From: Prevotella sp. E15-22
Lineage (GTDB): Bacteria; Bacteroidota; Bacteroidia; Bacteroidales; Bacteroidaceae
Reading direction: 5' to 3'
DNA: 64,000 nucleotides
Assembly (NCBI RefSeq): GCF_023204875.1
Contig: NZ_CP096247.1
Coordinates: 1,488,001 to 1,552,000, forward strand
Made by a program: the position numbers and the translations under genes. Under the pieces are notes generated by a model. It saw only the letters and a list, made by a program, of their open reading frames with translations, was not told the origin of the DNA and made no database searches. Shown here piece by piece: positions 3,816 through 17,696 of this stretch; within the stretch, counting starts at the first letter, position 1; each line of letters begins with the position of its first letter.

Positions 3816-4784
3816 ATGCCAAGTTTGAAAGAAATTAAAGGTCGTATTGCCTCTGTCAACTCCACGCGTAAGATCACGAGTGCTATGAAAATGGTTGCTT
3901 CGAGTAAGCTACATCATGCACAGGTGGCCATCCAGAATATGCTGCCCTATGAGACCTTATTGGAACACATCCTTAAGTCGTTTCTTGCAGCCGAAGCTGG
4001 TGCTCAGACTATCTATGACCAAGAGCGCCCGGTGAAGCGTGTGGCCCTTGTGGTATTCTCTAGCAACTCGTCACTTTGCGGGGGGTTCAATGCCAATGTC
4101 ATACGTATAATGCTGCATGCTGTCCAAGAACTATCTGACGCCATTGGTCCTGAAAATGTGGATATATATCCCGTAGGTCGTAAAGTGGCAGAGAAGGCTC
4201 AGAAGATGGGGTTCAACGTTAAGGGCGACTATTGCGAATTAGTGGACAAACCCAACGTGAAGCAATGTATTGACTTGGCAATGGAACTTGGGCGCAGGTT
4301 TGCTGATGGTGAGGTGGATAGGGTAGAGTTAATCTATCACCACTTCAAAAGTGCCGGTTCGCAGATTCTGACCCACAAGACATTTTTGCCTATCGATGTT
4401 GAGAGCGAGTTGGAGCGTGACCATGAACGTGATTTGTCGTCGACTGTTATCACCAAGAAGGCTCAAGATTATCTGAAGCGCAACCGTAGGAAGAGGGATG
4501 TAAGAGAAGACGAAGTGAAGCCACTGAATGACAACTTCATTGTGGAGCCTGATATGACTACTGTGCTTACCAAGTTGTTGCCTAAGTTGGCCCACCTCAT
4601 GATTTATACAGCCTTGCTCGACAGCGTTGCCTCGGAGCATGCCGCCCGTATGGTGGCTATGCAGACAGCCACAGACAATGCCGACGAGTTGTTGCGTCAG
4701 TTGAACCTGCAGTACAACAAGAGTCGCCAGCAGGCCATTACCAGTGAATTGCTCGATATCGTTGGTGGTTCTGTAAATAACTAA
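3816..4784 (+). CDS. atpG: ATP synthase F1 subunit gamma
   Basis: Subunit gamma is the central shaft that turns inside the F1 hexamer. The N-terminus (LKEIKGRIASVNSTRKITSAM) and the C-terminal helix with ERAAR-like SEHAARMVAMQTATDNADEL are typical. The protein is 322 residues, about 30 longer than common bacterial gamma subunits; the extra length comes from a charged insert near residues 205-245 (KRNRRKRDVREDEV). It is the last gene of the operon and is followed by a hairpin. Confidence 0.96.
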   Translation: MPSLKEIKGRIASVNSTRKITSAMKMVASSKLHHAQVAIQNMLPYETLLEHILKSFLAAEAGAQTIYDQERPVKRVALVVFSSNSSLCGGFNANVIRIMLHAVQELSDAIGPENVDIYPVGRKVAEKAQKMGFNVKGDYCELVDKPNVKQCIDLAMELGRRFADGEVDRVELIYHHFKSAGSQILTHKTFLPIDVESELERDHERDLSSTVITKKAQDYLKRNRRKRDVREDEVKPLNDNFIVEPDMTTVLTKLLPKLAHLMIYTALLDSVASEHAARMVAMQTATDNADELLRQLNLQYNKSRQQAITSELLDIVGGSVNN

Positions 4785-16224: not shown

Positions 16225-16512
16225 ATGAATAATAAAGAGTTTGTTACATTATTGGCAGGACGCACAGGAATGAAGGTTTCTGAGGCTCAAAAGACCATGG
16301 AATCAATTATTTCCATCATGGGCGATTGCTTTCAAGAGGGAGATACTGTACAGATGGCTAATTTTGGTACGTTTGAAGTTAAAAAGAAGTTGGAACGAAT
16401 CATGGTTAGTCCAACGACTGGTCAGCGTATGCTTGTTCCTCCCAAGTTGGCTTTGACATTCAAGCCCAATCCCACTTGGAAAGATATGATTAAGAAGGGA
16501 GGAACTGAGTGA
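16225..16512 (+). CDS. HU/IHF family nucleoid protein
   Basis: A 95-residue histone-like DNA-binding protein that bends and compacts DNA as a dimer. The sequence runs through the helical dimer core (NNKEFVTLLAGRTGMKVSEA), NFGTFEVKKK and the beta-arm region with PTTGQRMLVPPKLALTFKPN. It lacks the long basic tail of some paralogues. Its stop overlaps the start of the next gene, which also begins with an HU domain, so the two may be co-produced and could form a mixed dimer (inference). Confidence 0.93.
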   Translation: MNNKEFVTLLAGRTGMKVSEAQKTMESIISIMGDCFQEGDTVQMANFGTFEVKKKLERIMVSPTTGQRMLVPPKLALTFKPNPTWKDMIKKGGTE

Positions 16513-17696
16513 TGGGAAAGATATTTATGAGTGACTTGGCCGACCGTCTTGCGGAGCAGGCTGGAATGAGCAAGCGTGATGCTCAGCAGTTTCTGTCCGC
16601 AGTTGTTGAAACTATTCAAGAAGGCGTTAATAACGATAAAATCGTAAAAATTAAGGGACTTGGTACCTTTAAAGTTATTGATGTTGAGGCACGCGAGAGT
16701 GTTAATGTAAACACCGGAGAACGTGTGACCATTGATTCTCATCAGAAGTTAACGTTTACCCCCGATAGTGCCATGAAGGATTTGGTTAACAAACCTTTCT
16801 CTCAGTTTGAGACTGTAGTATTGAACGATGGGGTAGATTTTGATGATGTGAATACGGAGTCTGTAGAGGAACTGAAAGATACAGAGAAACCTGAAGAAAC
16901 AGAAATCCTTGAGGTATCTGAGATATCATCTGTACCGGAAAAATCTGAAGCACCTGAATCATCTGAGAAATCTGAATCATCCGTAATTCCTGTTGTTTCA
17001 GAAGTATCAGAAGCATCTGTTGTCACCGAGATATCTGACGCGCCAGCATCCCCAGAAGTTTCTGACGAACCTGAAGCATCCGAAGTTCCCGAGGTGTCTT
17101 CCGTATCGGAAACACCAGAGATTTCGGAAGCCCCAGAGCTCACTGAGACCACAGAGTATAAGCAATCATATTGGTGGTTGTGGCTATTAATAGCTATTGT
17201 TGCTTGTGTATGTAGTTTTGCTGGAGGCTACATTTTAGGTCGCCATATGGACCGTAATAGCATCTATGATGATGAAGAATCGAAGTCGGATACCACACTT
17301 GCAGTCGTCGTCAATTGCCAAGACACTCTGACTATCAGTGCCCAAAAGAACGATACGTTGAAGGCTGAAGAGCAGGAGATGTCCAAACAAAAGATTGATA
17401 GCGTGAAATCTGACGTATTGACCAAGAAAACTGACGAAGAGACTCCCGAATGGAAGAAATATGAAGATATGGATTCACGTGTGCGTACGGGTGCTTATCG
17501 TATTGTAGGAACCGACCGTGTTGTTAAGGTGAAGAGTGGCGAGACACTAAAACGTATTGCTAATCGCATCTTGGGCGAAGGTATGGAATGCTATGTTGAA
17601 GTATATAATAACATTTCATCCGGTCAGACACTAAAGGAAGGTCAGGAGATAATGATTCCTAAGTTGGAATTAAAGAAGAAACGTAAAAAAGAATAA
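16512..17696 (+). CDS. HU domain - transmembrane - LysM fusion protein
   Basis: The 394-residue protein joins three parts. Residues 1-95 are an HU/IHF-like DNA-binding domain (SDLADRLAEQAGMSKRDAQQ, IKGLGTFKVIDVEARESVNV). Residues about 130-215 are a low-complexity acidic linker of degenerate Ser-Glu-x-Pro repeats. One membrane helix spans about 220-243 (YWWLWLLIAIVACVCSFAGG). After a second linker, residues about 328-388 hold a LysM fold (VKVKSGETLKRIANRILGEG). Helix orientation puts HU in the cytoplasm and LysM in the periplasm, so the protein could connect DNA to peptidoglycan (inference). The ATG at 16512 overlaps the preceding HU gene by one base. It lies 27 bp before the MoxR gene. Confidence 0.9.
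   Translation: MGKIFMSDLADRLAEQAGMSKRDAQQFLSAVVETIQEGVNNDKIVKIKGLGTFKVIDVEARESVNVNTGERVTIDSHQKLTFTPDSAMKDLVNKPFSQFETVVLNDGVDFDDVNTESVEELKDTEKPEETEILEVSEISSVPEKSEAPESSEKSESSVIPVVSEVSEASVVTEISDAPASPEVSDEPEASEVPEVSSVSETPEISEAPELTETTEYKQSYWWLWLLIAIVACVCSFAGGYILGRHMDRNSIYDDEESKSDTTLAVVVNCQDTLTISAQKNDTLKAEEQEMSKQKIDSVKSDVLTKKTDEETPEWKKYEDMDSRVRTGAYRIVGTDRVVKVKSGETLKRIANRILGEGMECYVEVYNNISSGQTLKEGQEIMIPKLELKKKRKKE

Follow-up and report, generated by a model that had tools for sequence, protein, structure and literature searches.

A separately encoded HU protein and a membrane-spanning HU-LysM fusion in Prevotella as a candidate link between nucleoid and cell wall

To our knowledge, little is known about how Bacteroidota position and segregate their chromosomes, and about whether there is a physical hold of the envelope on the nucleoid. 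A locus in Prevotella sp. E15-22 (contig NZ_CP096247.1, positions 1,488,001 to 1,552,000, a stretch of 64,000 nucleotides that is called the window here) raises the question of whether an HU-type DNA-binding protein could be tied to the cell wall across the inner membrane. One protein of this locus runs from an HU domain (HU2) through an acidic linker and a single membrane helix to a LysM domain at its C-terminus, and a plain HU-family protein (HU1) is encoded upstream of it with an overlap of the two genes. An earlier note on the sequence had described both proteins and proposed that the fusion could tether the nucleoid. Its architecture and the co-encoded HU were confirmed, whereas three points needed correction, namely the DNA grip, the genomic context and the novelty of the architecture. 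The best reading of the locus is a membrane-anchored HU1:HU2 heterodimer that would link the nucleoid to peptidoglycan, and we hold it with close to even confidence.

Both terminal folds of the fusion were found by profile search and by structure prediction. HU2 matches PF00216 above its curated cut-off of 22.4 bits (E=5.4e-23, 81.5 bits) and so does HU1 (E=4.7e-21, 75.3 bits), which also matches HU chains in PDB (1hue, E=3e-12). The LysM match to PF01476 is marginal, with 21.3 bits against a cut-off of 20.9, and was observed in 14 of 61 relatives at E<=0.01. A 40-row profile of the LysM region matches LysM chains in PDB with a best E of 2.3e-15, and the predicted structure contains the beta-alpha-alpha-beta LysM fold. 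The agreement of profile, model and conservation rules out a spurious open reading frame (ORF) or a chance LysM match. This domain would hold peptidoglycan in the periplasm.

A total of 201 distinct fusions were collected as HU-matching ORFs of more than 220 residues, deduplicated by their last 150 residues. Loci L047 and L173 yielded no usable ORF. A hydrophobic stretch was observed in 198 of them, a LysM-profile match after it in 199 and both in 196, where the LysM profile was built from family members. HU1 is the constant partner of these fusions, as it was found upstream or fused in 201/201 distinct relatives, once truncated; the loci were found by HU2 similarity and genomes without HU2 fall outside this count. 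A separate HU1 lies directly upstream in 193 relatives, within 35 nucleotides in 182 and overlapping in 129, with spacing counted from the first possible start codon. The two HU domains are encoded by two genes in the window, but in 4/201 relatives, all of one genus (L158, L161, L163 and L177), a natural single chain contains HU1, HU2, the transmembrane helix (TM) and LysM; the L158 type is without the HU2 arm. Four others were first called lone fusions, and by eye three of these have an intact HU1 whose overlap exceeds the set limit. The fourth (L196, about 3830-4000) has a shortened HU1 with most of the helical part gone beside an intact fusion, which could reflect an assembly error or decay. 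The fused HU1-HU2 form also occurs among metagenome proteins, for example P0242 (103 members), P0251 (362), P0248 (29) and P0247 (14). In the window a GGAGG motif lies a few bases 5' of the HU1/HU2 overlap, and the two genes may be translationally coupled at the TGATG.

The two HU domains differ in the arm. The arm-tip proline of HU intercalates in DNA; it is present in HU1 (Pro63) and absent from the fused HU, which has Val66. Among 168 pairs of the window's order (Bacteroidales), proline was observed at the arm tip of 163 HU1 but of only 1 HU2, where the position is Val in 136, Ile in 11, deleted in 11, Gly, Ala, Thr or Ser in 2 each and Glu in 1. Averaged over this order, HU1 carries a net charge of +4.5 in the HU columns and HU2 one of -0.3; the canonical HU of the window genome has +7. 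Over all 193 pairs the arm is lost in 12 HU2 and in no HU1. Because of the arm-tip valine, the HU2 mean charge near zero and the loss of the arm, the fused HU seems ill suited to grip DNA by itself. The earlier note had taken it as the DNA-binding domain; the HU fold stands but a role as sole DNA grip is doubtful.

These observations suggest how the module could work. HU1 and HU2 would form an HU/IHF-type heterodimer at the inner membrane, where HU1, with its intact, basic, proline-tipped arm, would provide most of the DNA grip. HU2 would complete the DNA-binding body as its other half and serve as an adaptor to the acidic spacer, membrane helix and LysM, so that a periplasmic LysM gripping peptidoglycan would fasten the nucleoid to the wall. 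The heterodimer in the cell, the topology, the binding of DNA and of peptidoglycan and the tethering are all steps that we infer. An HU dimer was modelled by AlphaFold2 within a tandem chain, and the separation of HU1 from HU2 is old. As regards topology, Lys and Arg in the 15 residues flanking the helix were compared in 61 proteins, where the N-terminal side is richer in 48 and the C-terminal side in 6, with 7 ties. Since these family charges agree with the apparent lack, by eye, of a signal peptide before the HU domain, an N-terminus inside the cell is the better guess.

Several points weigh against the anchored heterodimer. AlphaFold2 might dimerise any two HU sequences, and inheritance in one operon would give constant pairing without physical contact. 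The HU tree was built from 90 columns with a short search; the HU1 of the window's order, taken alone, received a support of 22, and the HU2 of Balneolaceae do not fall on one side of a branch. The window protein itself is among the 6 C-side-rich ones, with 1 Lys or Arg before the helix and 3 after, so that the cytoplasmic HU and periplasmic LysM of the earlier note are favoured by the family but not by the window's own copy. In the 25 Balneolaceae pairs the arm-tip proline is kept in 25/25 HU1 and 25/25 HU2, and the mean net charges of this group (L156 counted in it) are +0.7 for HU1 and -1.0 for HU2; the division of labour is therefore a feature of the window's order. The five HU1 of the window's order without the proline (L165, L166, L171, L182 and L186) all have a neighbouring HU2 whose arm is shortened, which looks as though the DNA-binding arms of both partners decayed together at those loci. 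With 5/168 HU1 lacking proline, some pairs may therefore not kink DNA. Among the metagenome proteins, P0244 is a single fused sequence that may be an indel artefact, since its counterpart at 97% identity, P0283 with 1043 members, is not fused.

Other explanations assign the same parts different tasks. Membrane-bound one-component regulators provide the model for one of them, in which LysM or the stalk would sense the state of the wall and HU1:HU2 would act at particular promoters instead of as a bulk tether. HU/IHF proteins do work as architectural regulators, and IHF alpha is the best-scoring NCBIfam model for the two proteins, although below its cut-off (60 and 52.9 against 111 bits). The missing HU2 arms speak against such a regulator, which would also have no fixed neighbouring target because the gene neighbourhood varies within the family, and we consider it improbable. 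We give no more weight to a protein scaffold, where HU1:HU2 would bind protein rather than DNA and join a cytoplasmic machine to the wall. A protein-binding role has been proposed for eukaryotic CCDC81, but HU1 keeps the proline in 188/193 pairs (163/168 and 25/25) and, within the window's order, remains basic. Less probable still is the simplest version of the earlier note's idea, in which the fused HU would form a homodimer and bind DNA alone, with HU1 as an unrelated neighbour. The PF00216 match and HU fold of the fusion would allow this, as would the proline of Balneolaceae HU2, but HU1 is there at every distinct locus, the proline is absent in 167/168 HU2 of the window's order and natural HU1-HU2 fusions exist.

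The anchored heterodimer remains the reading we prefer, and as a constant two-gene module with a predicted cytoplasmic HU dimer and periplasmic LysM it would be a direct, deletable candidate for the link between nucleoid and envelope. The asymmetry of HU1 and HU2 offers a testable mechanism, namely which partner grips DNA and which one anchors. The module is common in the window's family (Bacteroidaceae) and is a good experimental target. Coordinates are collected in Table 1.

Table 1. Features of the HU1 and HU2-TM-LysM genes (window positions)
Feature	Position	Strand	Basis
HU1, plain HU-family partner, 95 residues	16225..16512	+	PF00216 match; PDB HU matches
Pro63 codon, arm tip of HU1	16411-16413	+	sequence
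TGATG, overlapping HU1 stop and HU2 start	16510..16514	+	sequence
HU2-TM-LysM fusion, 394 residues	16512..17696	+	domain matches, predicted structure
HU domain of fusion, residues 7-93	16530..16790	+	
Val66 codon, arm-tip position (Pro in HU1 and canonical HU)	16707..16709	+	alignments
Acidic linker, predicted disordered, residues 97-220	16800..17171	+	predicted local distance difference test (pLDDT) mostly <50; 28% Asp/Glu
Membrane helix, residues 221-252; hydropathy core 225-243	17172..17267	+	hydropathy, model
Stalk, mostly disordered, predicted periplasmic, residues 253-328	17268..17495	+	model; membrane side inferred
LysM fold, residues 329-387; Pfam core 339-383	17496..17672	+	profile, predicted structure

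Domain matches give the gene order in the window as an FtsY-like GTPase, a RimO-like radical-SAM enzyme, HU1, the fusion and a MoxR-type AAA protein; the genes that follow are presumably DUF58/Bat. We compared 60 regions around relatives, most of about 13 kb and 17 of them from far families. The ftsY-rimO and moxR-bat flanks accompany the pair in the majority of regions from the window's family and in part of its order, but they did not turn up in any of the 17 far-family regions or in some of those from the window's order (about 13 kb each). The HU1-HU2 pair persists where the flanks change. Five far-family regions gave no HU1 match by BLAST, and an ORF scan with alignment revealed an HU1-like ORF in them. 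The adjacency to MoxR/Bat pointed out in the earlier note thus holds for the window and most of its family but not for the far families, and the function of MoxR/Bat as a key to the pair is ruled out by this lack of conservation. In one member of the order (L122, 7135-8574) the genes after the pair read by eye, with no family search, as MscL- and MscS-type mechanosensitive channels. The promoter pattern TTTG-N17-23-TAnnTTTG, which we take to be of Bacteroidetes type, was observed 10 times in the whole window against 1.96 expected; no match was found in 10580-32596, the pair included, and therefore no operon start was placed.

Matches to the fusion were found in 132/151 genomes of the window's family at E<=1e-8 and in 54/295 of its order, 41 in open frames of more than 300 residues and 13 in frames of 92-156 residues. 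A sample of the phylum gave 238/395 genomes at E<=1e-5, but plain HU makes up many of the matches listed. Hosts among the matches listed, which take in the best 80 loci of one scan, include Prevotella communis, P. koreensis, Xylanibacter brevis, Segatella copri, Hoylesella enoeca, Palleniella intestinalis, Phocaeicola coprophilus, P. barnesiae and also Bacteroides. Balneolaceae is a far family rich in the full architecture, with three Rhodohalobacter proteins among the relatives. By eye, Balneolaceae fusions at L139-L155 have an extra, probably helical stretch C-terminal to LysM.

The class of architecture is already known and cannot be called new. At another locus of the same genome (L037/L269, contig ~1970100-1971250), HU-CCDC81_bac_1 and bac_2 are followed by a membrane helix and SPOR (PF18174 E=1.1e-28, PF18175 8.1e-28, SPOR 3.1e-9). 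The fusion and an over-cut-off PF18175 match elsewhere occur together in 6/6 own-order genomes of the 395-genome sample. Filing the pair as HU-CCDC81-SPOR is ruled out, as PF18175 gives the fusion 26.7 bits, below the cut-off of 35, and no match to PF05036 (SPOR) was listed for it at E<=1; the two-gene LysM form is a distinct variant. In profile-profile comparison HU1 scores 34.7 (window's order) and 42.4 (Balneolaceae) against bac_1, where canonical HU scores 25.7, and HU2 scores 41.1 and 27.5 against bac_2, where canonical HU scores 29.1; the cross-pairings range from 20.5 to 27.3. By eye HU1 and bac_1 share a motif of Pro-Pro and, further on, Phe that follows the arm. These scores and the motif hint that the pair is related to the tandem protein as its split-gene counterpart, although Balneolaceae HU2 is no closer to bac_2 than canonical HU. 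That the pair is a split-gene sister or ancestral form of HU-CCDC81-TM-SPOR, with HU1 as bac_1 and HU2 as bac_2, is a tentative and rather doubtful proposal.

Burroughs et al. reportedly named the HU-CCDC81 clades in Cell Cycle in 2017, under a title that mentions chromosome partitioning, and reportedly proposed that eukaryotic CCDC81 derived from Bacteroidetes. If both that proposal and the split relation were true, the tandem HU of a centrosome and ciliary protein would descend from an envelope-anchored bacterial HU heterodimer in which decay of the second arm had already begun. A phmmer search of PDB sequences with the HU-CCDC81 tandem of the window genome gave one weak match (2l3b, E=0.11) and did not confirm certain microtubule chains as CCDC81. 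A full-text literature search, with most subscription papers outside its reach and hence no proof of absence, found no paper on HU-CCDC81 nor on an architecture of HU with LysM.

Like HU-CCDC81-SPOR (PF18174, PF18175, PF05036), the fusion has HU in its N-terminal half, followed by a single membrane helix, and ends in a domain of peptidoglycan-binding type. The pair differs by LysM in place of SPOR, by full-length HU domains and by two separate genes in place of one tandem chain. HubP/FimV also has a periplasmic LysM that binds peptidoglycan, one membrane helix and a long acidic cytoplasmic region, and HubP of Vibrio and Shewanella places oriC at the pole (PMC12918733). The predicted layout of the fusion resembles it in these three elements. 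In HubP/FimV, however, LysM is N-terminal, the C-terminus is FimV/TPR, the protein works through client proteins and no HU is described, whereas the fusion has a C-terminal LysM and an N-terminal HU. The pair shares fold, dimer type and PF00216 with the HU/IHF (DNABII) proteins. IHF and E. coli HU also pair paralogous partners (heterodimer PDB entry 2o97). Unlike these proteins, the HU1-HU2 pair has a predicted membrane anchor and, in the window's order, one partner without the arm-tip proline and the basic charge.
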